A stretch of DNA of 47,871 nt from an uncultured Clostridia bacterium (GTDB lineage Bacteria > Bacillota > Peptococcia > Peptococcales > Peptococcaceae): NCBI GenBank assembly GCA_944391625.1, contig CALXUG010000019.1, forward strand, positions 1-47,871. The letters run 5' to 3'. The notes beneath the pieces are model-generated. The model saw nothing but the letters and a program-made list of their open reading frames with translations. It made no database searches and was not told the DNA's origin. Shown one piece after another: positions 10,101 to 47,871 of the stretch. The translations under genes were made by a program, and so were the position numbers. The number at the start of each line of letters is the position of its first letter. Positions within the stretch are counted from its first letter, which is position 1.

Positions 10101-10155
10101 GAAAACAAAAAGCGGCTGAACGCTCTATCACATCGTATAGAGGCGTTCAACCGCG
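10101..10155 (-). terminator. T-box terminator
   Basis: Read on the minus strand, GCGGTTGAACGC(C)TCTAT pairs with ATAGAGCGTTCAGCCGC (10128-10112), loop ACGATGTG, followed by TTTTTGTTTTC. The 5' arm overlaps the T-box core, giving the mutually exclusive antiterminator expected of this riboswitch class. Confidence 0.9.
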
Positions 10156-10417
10156 GTTCCACTCTAATTCAATCACAGCCATATACCAATGGCCGGATTT
10201 TCTTTTGCAGCCGATAACGAGGCCAAACGGAATCATTTACTAAGCTGGTGCTGTTCCATGTTCAACTCCCGAGCGCACTTCTTTTTGCGTTTCGTCAGGT
10301 TTGCTTTCAGCCAATGACAAACCCTCTCTGTTACTTCCTGCAAAAATACTCTACCCGTTCCTGGTTTTTATCTGTTTTGTTTTTCTTCTATTATATATGC
10401 TGCTGTCCGCAACACCA
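10101..10417 (-). ncRNA. T-box leader, cysteine-specific
   Basis: On the minus strand the leader has the T-box landmarks in order: AGTA (10350-10347) in the 5' side of the specifier loop, the AGAGAGGGTTTG apical arm with GGCTGAAAGCAAACC, the specifier TGC (10277-10275) in the context GAAG-TGC-GCTCGGGAG, and the T-box core AGAGTGGAACCGCGG (10165-10151). TGC encodes Cys. The antiterminator bulge TGGA would pair with a tRNA ending UCCA, which matches the U73 discriminator of tRNA-Cys. The leader precedes cysE-cysS in the same direction. Uncharged tRNA-Cys should promote read-through of the terminator at 10101-10155. Confidence 0.92.
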
Positions 10418-40996: not shown

Positions 40997-41025
40997 TTGA
41001 CAATCAATTTCTCCTGTGCTAACAT
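40997..41025 (+). promoter_or_regulatory. Promoter of the Phe T-box/TRAP operon
   Basis: TTGACA (40997-41002), 17 bp, TAACAT (41020-41025). Transcription would start near 41032, just before the T-box leader. Confidence 0.75.
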
Positions 41026-41070
41026 ATTATTCACTATAAAGCACATCGGTTTTATAGGTTTATATGCACA

Positions 41071-41310
41071 TACAGCAATGATGGGATTCCCAGTAGCGCA
41101 GTCCGGTTACAATGCAGAGAGCAGGTTGGTTGGTGAAAAACCTGCAGCACAGACTGAACGCCAAGTTCACTCCCGGAGCTTCTGTTTTCAACAGCGGTTT
41201 GCTGACCGTTACAGCAGCACAGAGGCATTGGCGGCTTTTTGTCTATCAATGTAAATAAAGGTGGTACCACGGTCATTCGTCCTTTTTGGGATGGATGGCC
41301 GTTTTTTTAT
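41071..41310 (+). ncRNA. T-box leader, phenylalanine-specific by specifier TTC
   Basis: Landmarks in order: K-turn-like ATGATGGGA (41079-41086) pairing with TCCCGGAGC (41171-41179); AGTA (41092-41095); apical arm AGAGAGCAGGTTGG with GAAAAACCTGC; specifier TTC (41166-41168) in CAAG-TTC-ACTCCCGGAG, a context like that of ACC-ACUCCUGAG in B. subtilis thrS; T-box core AAGGTGGTACCACGG (41258-41272); terminator ACGGTCATTCGTCC/GGATGGATGGCCGT (41269-41282/41289-41302) with TTTTTTTAT. The bulge TGGT would pair with a tRNA ending ACCA, which fits the A73 of tRNA-Phe. It controls the TRAP transporter gene starting at 41345. Confidence 0.9.
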
Positions 41311-41344
41311 CTATATCTTATTTTTTTTAGGAGGGGTTGCCAAT

Positions 41345-43312
41345 ATGCCCACTGACCAAAGCGCCAGTTCTAACCAGGAATTTGACATTGAAAAAAAGGC
41401 GCAGGAACTTTTAGAGGAGACCGACTCGGACAGCAGAATCCGGATTTTTGACAGTAAATTTGCCAAACTTCTTGCTGTAGGTCTGATTATATGGTCGTTG
41501 TTTCAGCTTTATTACAATACCATCGGTGTCATATCCACCATTCATTTTCGAGCCTGGCATATTTTATTTTTGCTCTGCTTTACCTTTGTTTATTATCCGG
41601 CGTTTAAAAAGGAAAAACGGAAACGAAAGCTTCCTCCTGTTTTTGACCTGGCTTTAATTGCTTTAACCATCTATGTATACACCTATGTGGTCATCAACTA
41701 TGATGCCATTGCCCAACGGGGCGGCAACTTAAACGGCGCAGACCTGCTGGTTGCCATACTGGGCATTTTGCTCATTTTTGAAGCAGCTCGCCGCGCCAGT
41801 CCCAGCTTGGCTGTGTTAGGACTTATCTTTATGGCCTATAACTTCTTAGGGCCTTACATCCCCGGTGTATTCGGGCATACCGGCTTTAGCTTAAAGCGGA
41901 TTCTCAGCCTGATGTTCTGGGGCAGTCAGGGCGTGTTCGGTGTCGGTATCGGCGTCAGCACCACCTATATCTTTTTATTTGTACTCTTTGGGGCTTTCCT
42001 CAAATACAGCGGCTTCAGCCAGTTTATCAATGACATTTCGCTGACTCTGGTGGGACAAACACCGGGCGGCCCTGCCAAAGTAGCTGTATTGGCCAGCGCA
42101 CTGATGGGCATGATCAACGGCAGCGCCATTGCCAATGTGGCCACCACTGGCACCATCACCATTCCATTGATGAAAAAAACCGGCTACAAACCGGAATTTG
42201 CCGCTGCAGTAGAAGCAGTGGCTTCCACCGGCGGTCAGTTTTGCCCGCCTATTATGGGGGCAGTGGGCTTTGTCATGGCGGAATTTTTGGGCATCAGCTA
42301 CACCAAGGTAATGCTGGCCGCCTGCATTCCCGCTTTTCTGTATTACCTAACACTGCTGTTTGCCGTACATTTTGAAGCAAAAAAATTGGGCCTGACCGGC
42401 CTGTCCAAAGAAAATATCCCGGATGCACTGCAAGTATTAAAAAGCCGCGGCCATTTGCTGCTGCCGCTGATTGTGCTGCTGGTGCTGATGTTTGCCGGCT
42501 ACACACCATTGTTTGCCGCTGTAGTTTCCATCTTTGCCACTGTAGCTGCATCCTGGCTCAGAAAAGAAACCAGAATGACACCAAAAATTATTATGGAAGC
42601 CACCTGCGAAGGAGCAAGAGGCGCTATCAGCGTTGGGGTTTCCTGCGCCATCATCGGCGTTATCATCGGCACTGTTTCTTTAACCGGTCTGGGCTTAACC
42701 TTCGGCAACCTGGTTCTGAAAGTTGTCGGCGAAAACCAGCTGTTCCTGGGCGGCTTTATGGTTATGGTGCTGAGCATCATCCTGGGCATGGGCGTTCCCG
42801 GTGTGGCTGCTTATGTTATCGTGGCTTCGGTGGCTGTGCCTGTACTGATTGAAATCGGCGCATCTCCGCTGGCAGCCCATATGTTCTGTCTGATTTATGC
42901 CTGCCTGTCCAACATTACACCGCCGGTTGCCATGAGCTCTTATGTAGCTGCCGGAATTGCCGGATCCAACCAGACCAAAACATCGCTCATTGCAGTACGG
43001 CTGGGATTAACCGGATTTATTATCCCTTTCTTTTTCCTGGATAATCCGCTGCTGCTTTACGGCACTGTGGAAGGCATCTCCTGGATTACCACACTGACTG
43101 CCTTTATCACCGCCTGCATCGGCGTTATCTGCCTATCTGCCGGATTAGAAGGCTGGCTGCTGAAAAAATGCAGTCCTGTGATACGAATTTTGTTGATTAT
43201 CGTGGGCTTTCTCAGCATTGACCCCAGCACCATCACTGATATTCTGGGCATCGGTCTGCTGGCAGCCATTATAATTTATCAGAAGCGTTTTCAACCATCG
43301 GCAGCTGCGTAA
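41345..43312 (+). CDS. Fused TRAP transporter permease (TAXI type)
   Basis: The 655-residue membrane protein joins the small (DctQ-like, 4 TM) and large (DctM-like, 12 TM) TRAP permease parts in one chain, as in TAXI-type TRAP systems. Residues about 240-300 hold the large-subunit signature GMINGSAIANVATTGTIT and FAAAVEAVASTGGQFCPP. TRAP systems import organic acids with an ion gradient. ATG at 41345 is chosen because AGGAGGG lies 8 nt upstream; a frame opening at 41261 lies inside the T-box. The binding protein follows 66 bp downstream. Substrate is inferred from the Phe T-box. Confidence 0.94.
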   Translation: MPTDQSASSNQEFDIEKKAQELLEETDSDSRIRIFDSKFAKLLAVGLIIWSLFQLYYNTIGVISTIHFRAWHILFLLCFTFVYYPAFKKEKRKRKLPPVFDLALIALTIYVYTYVVINYDAIAQRGGNLNGADLLVAILGILLIFEAARRASPSLAVLGLIFMAYNFLGPYIPGVFGHTGFSLKRILSLMFWGSQGVFGVGIGVSTTYIFLFVLFGAFLKYSGFSQFINDISLTLVGQTPGGPAKVAVLASALMGMINGSAIANVATTGTITIPLMKKTGYKPEFAAAVEAVASTGGQFCPPIMGAVGFVMAEFLGISYTKVMLAACIPAFLYYLTLLFAVHFEAKKLGLTGLSKENIPDALQVLKSRGHLLLPLIVLLVLMFAGYTPLFAAVVSIFATVAASWLRKETRMTPKIIMEATCEGARGAISVGVSCAIIGVIIGTVSLTGLGLTFGNLVLKVVGENQLFLGGFMVMVLSIILGMGVPGVAAYVIVASVAVPVLIEIGASPLAAHMFCLIYACLSNITPPVAMSSYVAAGIAGSNQTKTSLIAVRLGLTGFIIPFFFLDNPLLLYGTVEGISWITTLTAFITACIGVICLSAGLEGWLLKKCSPVIRILLIIVGFLSIDPSTITDILGIGLLAAIIIYQKRFQPSAAA

Positions 43313-43378
43313 ACAGATACGCACTGCTGAGCAAAATTCAGCTATATTTATTTTAATAAAAGAAAAGAGGGCATATCT

Positions 43379-44389
43379 ATGAAAAAACGTAAGCTTGTAT
43401 CACTAACCTTATGCGCTGCTATGCTGGCCACTGCACTAACCGGCTGCGGCAGCGGCGGCGACAGCCAAAACAATGCACAAACCCAAAGCGACGGCAAAGA
43501 GCCGGTTTCCATCAGCTTTATGACAGCAGCCACCACCGGCACCGTATATCCGCTGGGCTCTGCCATCGCCACACTGTGGAACGATGAACTGGATTATGTA
43601 ACCGCCAGCGCCACTGCATCCAACGGCGGTGTAGAAAATTTAAACTGCATTCGGGACGGCGAAGCCCAAATCGGTGTAGCAGTTACCAGCATCATGTACG
43701 AATCCATGAACGGCACAGGCGTTTTTGAAGGCAACGCAGACCCAAATCTGCGCGTGCTGGCCGGCTTGTACTACAACCCCAACCAGGTAGTGGTATCCGC
43801 TGAATCCGGCATTGAAACACTGAACGACTTAAAAGGCAAACGGTTTGCACCGGGCTCTCCGGGCGGCACCTCCGAAGTAGAAACCAACTATCATTTAACT
43901 GCACTAGGCATGAACTATCCCGATGACATTGACGCTCAATATGTAGGCTTTACCGAAGCCAGCGACCTGCTGCGCAACAAACAGCTGGACGGTGCCTGGA
44001 TTATGGCCGGTGTGCCTACCGCAGCTGTTACTGAAATCACCGCCACTGCCGGCGGCAAACTGGTGCCAATGGACGAAGCACTGATTGAAAAACTGCAAGC
44101 AACCTACCCATGGTATGCCAAATATACCATTCCGGCAGGCACCTACAGCGGTCAGGACCAAGACGTGCTGACATCAGCAGTTAAAATTACACTGTGTACC
44201 TCCGCCGACGTACCGGAAGATGTTATTTATGACCTGACCAAAACCTTCTGGGAAAATATCGACACCTTATCCCAATCCCAGAGCATTCTTAAATCCTGCT
44301 CTGTAGAAGAAGCCGTTACCGACCTGGCCGGCTTGCCAATCCATGACGGCGCTGCCAAATACTATAAAGAAATTGGCGTTTTGGAATAG
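43379..44389 (+). CDS. TAXI-family TRAP solute-binding lipoprotein
   Basis: The 336-residue protein has a lipoprotein signal with lipobox LTGC (Cys22) and the TAXI-family fold: SISFMTAATTGTVYPLGSAIATLWN, ASNGGVENLNCIRDGEAQIG, and RFAPGSPGGTSEVETNYHLTALG. It would bind the substrate outside the cell and deliver it to the fused permease encoded just upstream. AGAGGGC precedes the ATG. The substrate cannot be read from the sequence; an aromatic carboxylate is suggested by the Phe T-box. A terminator follows at 44451. Confidence 0.93.
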   Translation: MKKRKLVSLTLCAAMLATALTGCGSGGDSQNNAQTQSDGKEPVSISFMTAATTGTVYPLGSAIATLWNDELDYVTASATASNGGVENLNCIRDGEAQIGVAVTSIMYESMNGTGVFEGNADPNLRVLAGLYYNPNQVVVSAESGIETLNDLKGKRFAPGSPGGTSEVETNYHLTALGMNYPDDIDAQYVGFTEASDLLRNKQLDGAWIMAGVPTAAVTEITATAGGKLVPMDEALIEKLQATYPWYAKYTIPAGTYSGQDQDVLTSAVKITLCTSADVPEDVIYDLTKTFWENIDTLSQSQSILKSCSVEEAVTDLAGLPIHDGAAKYYKEIGVLE

Positions 44390-44450
44390 TGTTTTAGAAC
44401 AGCTGTTAGAACAATTTTTAGAAGAACTTTTAAAATAAAATTGTGCTGAG

Positions 44451-44481
44451 CCCTCGCCGGTCACAAACCGGTGAGGGTTTT
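44451..44481 (+). terminator. Intrinsic terminator after the TAXI gene
   Basis: CCCTCGCCGGT (44451-44461) pairs with ACCGGTGAGGG (44467-44477), one G-T pair, followed by TTTT. It separates the transporter genes from the dehydrogenase, at least partly. Confidence 0.85.
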
Positions 44482-44600
44482 CCATAGCAATAACCAAACA
44501 CGCAGCAGTGCGCTGCATATTTATCCATAAAACAGCTTGTGCCTAAATAACAAGCACACGCAAACAACCATTATAAAATTTGAATCAGGAGTGACAATCC

Positions 44601-45581
44601 ATGAAAAAAATCGGTTTAACCGGCATTTACTTTCCCGGCGCATTAGAAGCCCTGCGGGCAAATGTACCGGAAGGCTTTGAACTGGTAGAAGGCATCGAGC
44701 CGCAGGATTTTCCCAAATTAAAAGATTGCGATTATCTCATCACCCGTTTGAAAGTCGATGACTCTTTAATCCACAACACCCCCAACCTGAAACTGATTCA
44801 GCGCTGGGGCGCAGGCTACAACGATATGGACCTGCAAGCATGGGGACAGCGGGATATTCCCATCTCCACCTGCCCCGGCGTCAACAGCGGCATCGCTGCC
44901 GAGCTGACCATTATGCTGATGCTGGCCGTATACCGCAATCTGCTGCCCATCAACCGCAAAATCCTGAACAACGTATGGCCCAAAACCGAATACTTCGGCC
45001 GTTCCTACATGATAAACGGCAAAACAGTGGGCATCATCGGGCTGGGCAACATCGGCAGCAAGGTCGCCAAACTGGTAACCGCATTTGGCGCAACCGTACA
45101 ATATTACGATATCGAACGCAAATACCAACTGGAAGAACAATACGGCTATCAATTTGTGTCCCAGGATGAACTGCTGCACACCTCCGACATTGTAACCCTG
45201 CACACACCGCTGACCGATTTAACCCGCGGCATGATCGATGCCGACGCACTGGCTAAAATGAAACCGCTGTCTGTAATTATCAACGCTGCCCGCGGTCCCA
45301 TCATCGATGAAGATGCGTTGGTGGCTGCGCTGGAAAGCGGCCATCTGCTGGGCGCCGGACTGGACACCTATGCCAACGAACCACTGGCGCCGGATAACAA
45401 ATTAGTGCGGCTGGACAACGTAGTGGCTTCCGCCCACGCCGGCGGCAACACCAAAGACAACGATATCAACATGGTAAACTATTGCTACTCCAATATTGTC
45501 AACTTTGACCGGGGCCTGCCCTTCAACTCCAAACGGGATGTGGTCAACAAAGAATATCTGCGCACCCCGGTAATCGATTAA
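44601..45581 (+). CDS. D-2-hydroxyacid dehydrogenase
   Basis: The 326-residue NAD-dependent enzyme interconverts a 2-oxo acid and a D-2-hydroxy acid. It has GLGNIG at 147-152 and an acidic residue at the end of beta-2 (Asp170), favouring NADH. The catalytic triad is Arg231 in NAARGP, Glu260 in YANEPL and His279 in SAHAGG. CAGGAGTGAC precedes ATG. The next upstream gene is the TAXI protein, 211 bp away across a terminator. The family covers D-lactate, phosphoglycerate, hydroxyisocaproate and phenyllactate enzymes; phenylpyruvate is only suggested by context. Confidence 0.93.
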   Translation: MKKIGLTGIYFPGALEALRANVPEGFELVEGIEPQDFPKLKDCDYLITRLKVDDSLIHNTPNLKLIQRWGAGYNDMDLQAWGQRDIPISTCPGVNSGIAAELTIMLMLAVYRNLLPINRKILNNVWPKTEYFGRSYMINGKTVGIIGLGNIGSKVAKLVTAFGATVQYYDIERKYQLEEQYGYQFVSQDELLHTSDIVTLHTPLTDLTRGMIDADALAKMKPLSVIINAARGPIIDEDALVAALESGHLLGAGLDTYANEPLAPDNKLVRLDNVVASAHAGGNTKDNDINMVNYCYSNIVNFDRGLPFNSKRDVVNKEYLRTPVID

Positions 45582-45747: not shown

Positions 45748-47871
45748 TTAATTGAATTTTCTTCTGGTTACCACCAGTCCGCAAGCTGCTGCCAGCATCA
45801 ATACCACAAATGGAATTGTGTTGCTGTTATCGCCTGTTTGCGGTGCATCACCCAATGGAACTTCCGGTTCATCAATCTCTACTTCTTCACCAGGTACATC
45901 TATCAATGGTACATCTGGATCTTCGATTTCAATAACCGGTTCTTCCGGATCTGTCAGTGGTACATCCGGATCTTCGATTTCGATGTCAGGATCGGTTGGA
46001 TCGTCTGGTTTCCCCGGATCTACAGGATCTACAGGAGTATTGCCTTCAAAGGTGTTTACAAATACATACTGTAAGCTAGAGCCTGATGTTACTTCACCAG
46101 AGATACCGTCTATCGTGTATACCCCATTATTTACAGTTGTGCTGTCTGCACCACCATTGCCTGTTTCTTTCAGTACAAAACTAATTGCACTGCCAGAAGC
46201 AACTTGTACGTCAAAGCTCATCCAACCGGATTGTGTTGCAGATGCATTAATAGTAAATTTGAAAATATATTGACCGCTTGCTGCATCATAGTAACAATTC
46301 TGGTCAGCAGAATCTTCATTCAATACAAATTCCTGTGTAGTATCATCCTGATGCTTAGCAACCAATGTTACTTCAGCAGGTTTTGTAATTTTTGTGCTGC
46401 TCAAGAATGCCTGACGGTCTGCTACTACAGTATTGTATTCTTCTTCAGCAACTGTTGCTGCTGATACTTTAGCAAACATATCCTGCGCTGCTTCAGCATT
46501 AAAGAGTAAAGTAACTCCTTCTACTTTTTCACCAAAGGCCTCTGCTACCGCAGCAAACAAATCTGTTACATCGTTTACTACCTCAGCAGTTAAACCATCA
46601 ATGAAGTCTGCAATTTCACCCATCAGTGTTGCATCGGCAGTTTTAACACTTTCAAAGTCATACAACAACGCAGATGGAGATGTTACATCGCTGTCAAACA
46701 AACCATACACAGTACCATCTTCATCCACTCTGGCAAATTTCACCATAGAATCTGTGGTAACTGTTACGCCAGTTCCGATGAACGACTTTCTCGCTGTATT
46801 TTTTGCTGCAAGCGCTTCGTTCCAATCTGTTTCTTTGGCACTAACCTTGCCATTCCAGATTGCAAGTTGGTTCGCTTCTTCTGTTGTTAAGTCACGATCA
46901 CCTTTTACCTGTTCTGGAGTCAACTCTAAAGTAAATTCGTAATCCTGCGCTGTGTTGTTACCCACAACTTGTTTGGTTACATTAATGTTGCCTTCATCTT
47001 TTGGTGTTACCATACCTGTTGCATACAGATACAATGTATGGAAAGCATCTTTAAATAAATCTACTTTGTCACTTACACTATCATCCTCAAAGTTCCAAGT
47101 ATAGGCACTGCCTGTAGTAACCCAATCGCCATCAAATGTGGCATTTGGTTTCAGAATATGATTGTTTTTCTGATAGATATAACCGCTGCTTTCCAGCTCT
47201 TTATATTCAGATTCTTCAGAATCTCTGTAGAAATAAACAACCTGATATCCTAAATCAAAGTAAACTTTCAAAGTAGTACTTCCATCACCATTGATTTTCT
47301 GACTATCTACTGTTTTTTCAGCATTCCAACTATACGCACTGCTGGTTGTGATATTTACTTTTTTATCATCACCTAACAATGTTGCTGTTGTATCCGTTAC
47401 ACCAGCACGTTCTGTTGAGCCTTCCAGTTTATAATCATTTTCACCAGTAGGCTGCTGATAATAGTATTCTACTGTATATTTGATGCCATCCACAGCAACA
47501 TAGTACACTTTGATGACACCCTTATCTGCAATACTACTCGGAATTGTCCCTGGCTCTGTCTTTTCAAACTTATAACCAACATATTTGTTTGTTACATTGA
47601 TTTTTGTCTGATCTACAGTCAGTGTATCTGGAGCATTTACCCATACTTCTGCTGTTTCAGTCTGAGTATCTCCTGCTACTTTCACACCATCTTTATAGTA
47701 TTCTACTGTGTAACTCAGTTCTTTCTTTACGGTATCATCCTTCACGTAGTAGATTTTGATGACTGTTCCGCTATCCACCAACGCATCCTTTGCTGGTACT
47801 GTTGTTGGATTTGTGCTGCCCAGTTTGTAACCTGCATACTTGTTATTTGCTGTATCGATAGTTTCCTGAAT
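45748..47871 (-). CDS. Sortase-anchored surface protein, C-terminal part
   Basis: The frame stays open to the right edge, so the N-terminus is missing; 707 residues are visible. Order: about four MucBP-like repeats of 60-75 residues beginning YTVEYYKDG or similar (residues 1-265); a pilin/isopeptide-type region starting GNINVTKQVVGNN (about 270-590); an acidic proline-rich stalk; then APQTG, a hydrophobic helix and RRKFN. APQTG is a variant of LPxTG, so a sortase should fix the protein to peptidoglycan. Such proteins often bind mucin or other bacteria. Sortase is not in the window. Confidence 0.9.
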   Translation of the reverse strand: MQETIDTANNKYAGYKLGSTNPTTVPAKDALVDSGTVIKIYYVKDDTVKKELSYTVEYYKDGVKVAGDTQTETAEVWVNAPDTLTVDQTKINVTNKYVGYKFEKTEPGTIPSSIADKGVIKVYYVAVDGIKYTVEYYYQQPTGENDYKLEGSTERAGVTDTTATLLGDDKKVNITTSSAYSWNAEKTVDSQKINGDGSTTLKVYFDLGYQVVYFYRDSEESEYKELESSGYIYQKNNHILKPNATFDGDWVTTGSAYTWNFEDDSVSDKVDLFKDAFHTLYLYATGMVTPKDEGNINVTKQVVGNNTAQDYEFTLELTPEQVKGDRDLTTEEANQLAIWNGKVSAKETDWNEALAAKNTARKSFIGTGVTVTTDSMVKFARVDEDGTVYGLFDSDVTSPSALLYDFESVKTADATLMGEIADFIDGLTAEVVNDVTDLFAAVAEAFGEKVEGVTLLFNAEAAQDMFAKVSAATVAEEEYNTVVADRQAFLSSTKITKPAEVTLVAKHQDDTTQEFVLNEDSADQNCYYDAASGQYIFKFTINASATQSGWMSFDVQVASGSAISFVLKETGNGGADSTTVNNGVYTIDGISGEVTSGSSLQYVFVNTFEGNTPVDPVDPGKPDDPTDPDIEIEDPDVPLTDPEEPVIEIEDPDVPLIDVPGEEVEIDEPEVPLGDAPQTGDNSNTIPFVVLMLAAACGLVVTRRKFN
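45847..45984 (-). repeat. Acidic proline-rich stalk repeats
   Basis: Inside the surface-protein gene, two 17-residue units begin IEIEDPDVPL, followed by a degenerate EIDEPEVPLGD unit. The repeat spaces the anchor from the body of the protein and may vary in copy number. Confidence 0.85.

Follow-up and report, generated by a model that had tools for sequence, protein, structure and literature searches.

Why should a leader that senses the charging of tRNA-Phe stand in front of a TRAP-TAXI transporter, and what would such a transporter bring into the cell? The question is raised by 47,871 nucleotides of DNA from an uncultured Clostridia bacterium of the Peptococcaceae (contig CALXUG010000019.1; this whole stretch is called the window, and its genome G000), in which a T-box with a phenylalanine specifier precedes genes for a fused TRAP permease and a TAXI solute-binding protein, with a D-2-hydroxyacid dehydrogenase gene behind them. 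The T-box, its specifier and terminator, the gene order and its conservation, the linkage of the dehydrogenase and an independent tyrosine T-box in a relative were all computed, and conserved control of the TRAP-TAXI operon by a phenylalanine T-box is well supported at this level. We put at about 0.6 the probability that phenylalanine starvation turns on the import of phenylpyruvate or phenyllactate, with the dehydrogenase oxidising the hydroxy acid. The features of the locus are listed below.

40997-41025, forward strand: candidate promoter, TTGACA-17-TAACAT with TG ahead of the second hexamer (consensus match only, 10/12)
41069-41287, forward strand: T-box leader RNA (RF00230, 79.3 bits)
41166-41168, forward strand: specifier TTC, for phenylalanine (Rfam alignment; UUC kept in orthologous leaders)
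41258-41271, forward strand: T-box core AAGGTGGTACCACG (from the sequence)
41262-41265, forward strand: bulge TGGT, pairing with the ACCA-3' end of tRNA (from the sequence; discriminator of tRNA-Phe, A73)
41269-41302, forward strand: intrinsic terminator, 15-bp stem of -23.3 kcal/mol, followed by seven T
41345-43312, forward strand: fused TRAP permease, 655 amino acids (TIGR02123, 663 bits against a cutoff of 321; PF06808)
43379-44389, forward strand: TAXI solute-binding lipoprotein, 336 amino acids (TIGR02122, 299 bits against a cutoff of 84)
44448-44480, forward strand: strong hairpin with a short T tail (TTTT), possibly a partial terminator (about -25 kcal/mol, z -6)
44601-45581, forward strand: D-2-hydroxyacid dehydrogenase, 326 amino acids (PF02826/PF00389; beside the TRAP-TAXI pair in relatives)

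An initial annotation, made from the letters of the sequence, had described a complete T-box in front of a TRAP-TAXI transporter, and both halves of that description hold. The Rfam T-box covariance model matches the leader over its complete length (model positions 1-219; E 1.4e-17), and the permease and binding protein both exceed the curated cutoffs of their families. The score of the leader is below the Rfam gathering score of 93 bits, which is a curation threshold and not a structural feature; the T-boxes of thrS (90.3 bits), glyQ (91.6), cysE-cysS (89.2) and serC (85.1) in the same genome also fall below it. The leader carries the AGUA side of the specifier loop and an apical GGUUGGUGAAA loop, and the bulge matches tRNAs ending in ACCA, as had been read. 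The terminator shares the 3' part of the T-box core, an overlap that had likewise been noticed, and is hence exclusive with the antiterminator. A second T-box lies in the window at 10136-10371 on the reverse strand (specifier TGC for cysteine, bulge TGGA; 89.2 bits), upstream of a cysE-like gene and cysS, and is ordinary.

The covariance-model alignment places the specifier at TTC, within CCAA-G-TTC-A-CTCCCGGAGC, and not at GCC, in agreement with the initial annotation. This UUC is matched by a tRNA-Phe(GAA) encoded in the genome, whose pheS likewise stands behind a UUC T-box, and UUC is the specifier in 99% of phenylalanine T-boxes (PMC7778990). Elsewhere in the genome the specifier agrees with the target at leuA, leuC, a trpX-like gene, valS, tyrS, pheS, thrS, cysS and serC, and by eye at glyQ and a metG-like gene, while the target of one tryptophan T-box is unclear. 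As a separate observation, a T-box with a tryptophan specifier (L006, G000:C4:146057-146303, reverse strand) lies ahead of a glycerol-dehydrogenase-like gene, which is unusual for a tryptophan T-box. One irregularity attends the leader in the window: with a 4-bp stem GGGA/UCCC below the specifier loop, five bases instead of four separate the 3' neighbour of the codon from GGAG, whereas the other T-boxes of the genome, read by eye, have four bases from the base after the codon to the GGAG-type strand. A reading shifted to UCA, a serine codon, therefore needed weighing; the evidence, set out with the other alternatives below, leads us to favour phenylalanine.

Is this arrangement peculiar to one contig? 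The initial annotation had called for a search for other TRAP-TAXI genes behind phenylalanine T-boxes, and five more genomes were found, with the binding protein or the permease as query across named and further genomes. T-boxes with a UUC specifier thus precede orthologous TRAP-TAXI pairs in at least six genomes: that of the window, G005 (UBA7185, same genus; 85.0 bits with RF00230), G407 (Chakrabartyella piscis; 73.5), G408 and G409 (uncultured Clostridia with near-identical leaders; 75.9) and G450 (81.2). The six loci form one clade with a bootstrap of 100 in a tree of permease and binding protein, the deeper branches of which are poorly resolved. A regular expression for the 14-nucleotide core missed G450 and a further genome, G313, both of which have altered cores and were recovered by covariance and nucleotide-profile searches. 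Loci negative by the regular expression were rechecked with a nucleotide profile built from 18 leaders, which found no further T-box beside the other TRAP-TAXI loci examined; none was found at the loci of G493, G514 and G483, and in G484 the contig ends inside the permease. In UBA7185 the reading frame of the binding-protein gene (L023, 6001-7266) is lengthened by a stretch of N, which reflects a gap in the assembly and not an insertion.

Because it is present at six of the six phenylalanine T-box loci and missing from four related TRAP-TAXI loci (G493, G514, G483 and G484), the dehydrogenase subfamily belongs, by gene content, to the phenylalanine T-box TRAP-TAXI unit. In the relatives L014 and L015 the gene lies 25 nucleotides behind the TRAP-TAXI pair; for G409 it was seen on L014, another contig than the one that carries the T-box (L016). 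Among 398 sampled genomes of the phylum, none of the 397 besides that of the window gave a dehydrogenase match at E<=1e-85. The enzyme fails the equivalog model of phosphoglycerate dehydrogenase (SerA; TIGR01327, 227 bits against a cutoff of 454), and assignment by best solved structure was uninformative, with 164 generic matches. The nearby D-2-hydroxyacid dehydrogenase, suggested in the initial annotation to handle the hydroxy acid, is tied by gene content to the operon; its substrate is not assignable from sequence.

The best evidence for a link between the substrate and aromatic amino acids comes from G313, a member of the same order as the genome of the window. Here a T-box of 91.9 bits with the tyrosine specifier UAC, in the context GAA-UAC-A-UCUC, lies directly ahead of a TRAP-TAXI pair (62% identity for the permease, 51% for the binding protein), with prephenate dehydratase immediately upstream and a DUF362 protein downstream. 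Since this locus falls outside the phenylalanine clade, aromatic T-boxes appear to have been gained at least twice in this TRAP-TAXI family. In both G313 and G484 the gene behind the TRAP-TAXI pair encodes a DUF362 protein (L119, 3553-4704, and L145, 4392-5552, both on the reverse strand); LarA-family proteins match DUF362 weakly, and the protein may be another 2-hydroxyacid enzyme.

What, then, does the transporter carry? In VcGluP, a TAXI-TRAP system for glutamate, Y45, Q93 and E125 hold the amino group of the ligand and S75 its alpha-carboxylate, and the substitutions Y45A and Q93A lower affinity 213- and 990-fold (PMC11574862). Aligned with Y45, S75, Q93 and E125, the TAXI protein of the window and the whole phenylalanine clade have V, G, V and N; a second TAXI protein of the same genome retains Y, S, Q and E. 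Judged from this alignment, the TAXI protein of the window does not belong with the glutamate-type receptors: these positions are more hydrophobic, and the known amino-group contacts are lost. As these contacts are gone, an aromatic acid free of an amino group would be favoured over L-phenylalanine as the ligand. The genes nearby are of a matching kind: beside the dehydrogenase, operon neighbours in relatives include a LarA-family protein (L014, L015) and an FAD-oxidase with EtfBA (L017), which together point to 2-hydroxy acids. On L014 (3262-6906) and L015 (8303-11629), genes for a GntR regulator, a class III aminotransferase and the LarA-family protein stand directly behind the TRAP-TAXI and dehydrogenase genes. 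LarA was not found in the genome of the window and was rejected as a general part of the system.

Phenylalanine auxotrophy as the reason for import was also rejected, prephenate dehydratase being present in the genome of the window and in four of the four relatives tested, and chorismate synthase in the former; by its genes the cell is probably not an auxotroph. Given prephenate dehydratase, phenylpyruvate is expected as the last intermediate before phenylalanine, so that imported phenylpyruvate, or phenyllactate once oxidised, would be usable in one or two steps.

The mechanism that we propose has the leader act as a transcription-attenuating T-box read by tRNA-Phe. With tRNA-Phe charged, the leader would form the terminator at 41269-41302 and the operon would be off. 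Under phenylalanine shortage, uncharged tRNA-Phe would bind the leader at two places, by base pairing between the anticodon GAA and the specifier UUC and between the terminal ACCA and the bulge UGGU. The antiterminator would be stabilised in this way, whereupon the permease and the binding protein, and at least in the relatives the dehydrogenase too, would be made. From the evidence on the binding site and the neighbouring genes we infer the substrate, the reaction of the enzyme and its direction: the transporter would import the carbon skeleton of phenylalanine as phenylpyruvate and/or D-phenyllactate, oxidation of the D-hydroxy acid by the dehydrogenase would yield phenylpyruvate, and this would be converted to phenylalanine by the aminotransferase of the last step of normal phenylalanine synthesis. 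Under phenylalanine starvation the sensible direction is from the hydroxy acid through the oxo acid to the amino acid. The import of phenylpyruvate or phenyllactate upon phenylalanine shortage had been proposed in the initial annotation; its regulatory half is strengthened by the conserved T-box and the tyrosine T-box of the relative, and the proposed substrate fits the loss of the side chains that bind glutamate in VcGluP and the presence of 2-hydroxyacid genes nearby.

Several observations weigh against this proposal. Characterised transporters under T-box control mostly take up the very amino acid that the T-box senses. Relatives that have no T-box share much of the change at the binding site, and LarA is absent from the window's own genome. 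The dehydrogenase matches generic families only, its assignment being that of a general D-2-hydroxyacid dehydrogenase. Finally, the binding-protein and dehydrogenase genes of the window stand 211 nucleotides apart, and a strong hairpin lies in the gap, so that co-transcription of the dehydrogenase is there not certain and its control by the T-box could be partial. As a side observation, a large putative surface protein is encoded directly behind the operon (45748-47781, reverse strand); its repeats are acidic and rich in proline, and its C terminus bears a sortase-like anchor, PQTGD.

The main rival accepts the phenylalanine T-box and supposes that L-phenylalanine itself is imported, the dehydrogenase having a side job such as the recycling of phenyllactate or phenylpyruvate. 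Precedent exists on both the regulatory and the transport side, as T-box specifiers have served to predict amino-acid permeases (PMC2494555), and known TAXI proteins can bind amino acids such as glutamate (PMC11574862). We nevertheless consider it unlikely, as the side chains with which VcGluP holds the amino group are lost throughout the clade, and an importer of L-phenylalanine has no need of a 2-hydroxyacid dehydrogenase, yet one is linked to it in all six genomes. Less likely still is the import of another aromatic acid or of another precursor of aromatic amino acids (shikimate, an aryl acetate and an aryl acrylate are examples), with the dehydrogenase acting on a different 2-hydroxy acid. 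Phenylalanine and tyrosine T-boxes in one transporter family would be expected for a shared precursor too, and a TAXI transporter for o-phthalate is known, as cited in PMC11574862; a precursor of the shikimate type would leave unexplained why the D-2-hydroxyacid dehydrogenase is tied to the phenylalanine clade only.

The serine frame, in which the specifier lies one base further on and the operon would provide for serine supply, with an enzyme like phosphoglycerate dehydrogenase (PGDH) acting on glycerate or hydroxypyruvate, would satisfy the four-base rule of the genome's other T-boxes, which yields UCN in this leader, and PGDH is the best general match of the dehydrogenase, but it was rejected as very improbable: UUC is invariant in five distinct orthologous leaders, which have A, A, G, C or G at the position after it, so that a shifted codon would be UCA, UCG and UCC in turn; the distance from GAA to the codon would be 2, against 1 in the phenylalanine frame and 0-1 in the GAA-bearing T-boxes of the genome; the bulge UGGU fits A73 of tRNA-Phe, whereas G73 is the discriminator of the tRNA-Ser examined and UGGC the bulge of the serC T-box; and the related transporter of G313 bears a tyrosine T-box. 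The discriminator argument is strong and not absolute, as the two tryptophan T-boxes of the genome show a G:U wobble at that position.

We return to the import of phenylpyruvate or phenyllactate under phenylalanine starvation, which would place a salvage route under the direct control of tRNA charging and widen the reach of T-boxes beyond amino-acid permeases to the import of the carbon skeletons of amino acids. Phenyllactate is made by many Lactobacillus species (PMC7583248), and the proposal, if true, suggests cross-feeding on it. A tRNA-specific switch ahead of a TRAP-TAXI transporter offers, for a whole subfamily, a substrate prediction of a rare kind that can be tested. We give roughly even odds to the wider picture of a TRAP-TAXI subfamily that is specialised in aromatic 2-oxo and 2-hydroxy acids and induced by uncharged tRNA-Phe (tRNA-Tyr in another line), with which anaerobic Bacillota would salvage phenylpyruvate or phenyllactate that their neighbours release and rebuild the amino acid.

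How does this system compare with those already described? T-boxes before amino-acid transporters (trpX and the NSS, NhaC and LIVCS families; PMC2494555, PMC9382623) share its leader architecture and expected mechanism, and one T-box of the genome itself precedes a trpX gene. The 2008 survey (PMC2494555), in the portion used here, does not show TRAP as one of its T-box transporter families, and the present system differs from those families both in its TRAP-TAXI transporter and in the accompanying 2-hydroxyacid dehydrogenase. We came upon no T-box described as being in control of a TRAP transporter in the literature searched, although older surveys of T-box targets may mention one. The glutamate systems VcGluP of Vibrio cholerae and TtGluBP of Thermus (PMC11574862) likewise combine a TAXI protein with a fused TRAP permease and, judged by sequence, have much the same fold (phmmer E 3.5e-51); in contrast to them, the system of the window is T-box-regulated and has its ligand residues replaced. 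The o-phthalate transporter of Azoarcus sp. CIB, as cited in PMC11574862, is of the TAXI type too and likewise transports an aromatic acid; it is catabolic, with no T-box reported, and is set beside the system of the window by description only. The lactate racemase superfamily includes racemases of hydrophobic 2-hydroxyacids, and some of its members racemise 3-phenyllactate (PMC7583248, PMC11770544); a LarA homolog lies beside the operon in L014 and L015, in contrast to the window's genome, in which none was found. All the parts of the system are of known kinds; what appears to be new, against the literature searched, is a T-box on a TRAP-TAXI transporter.

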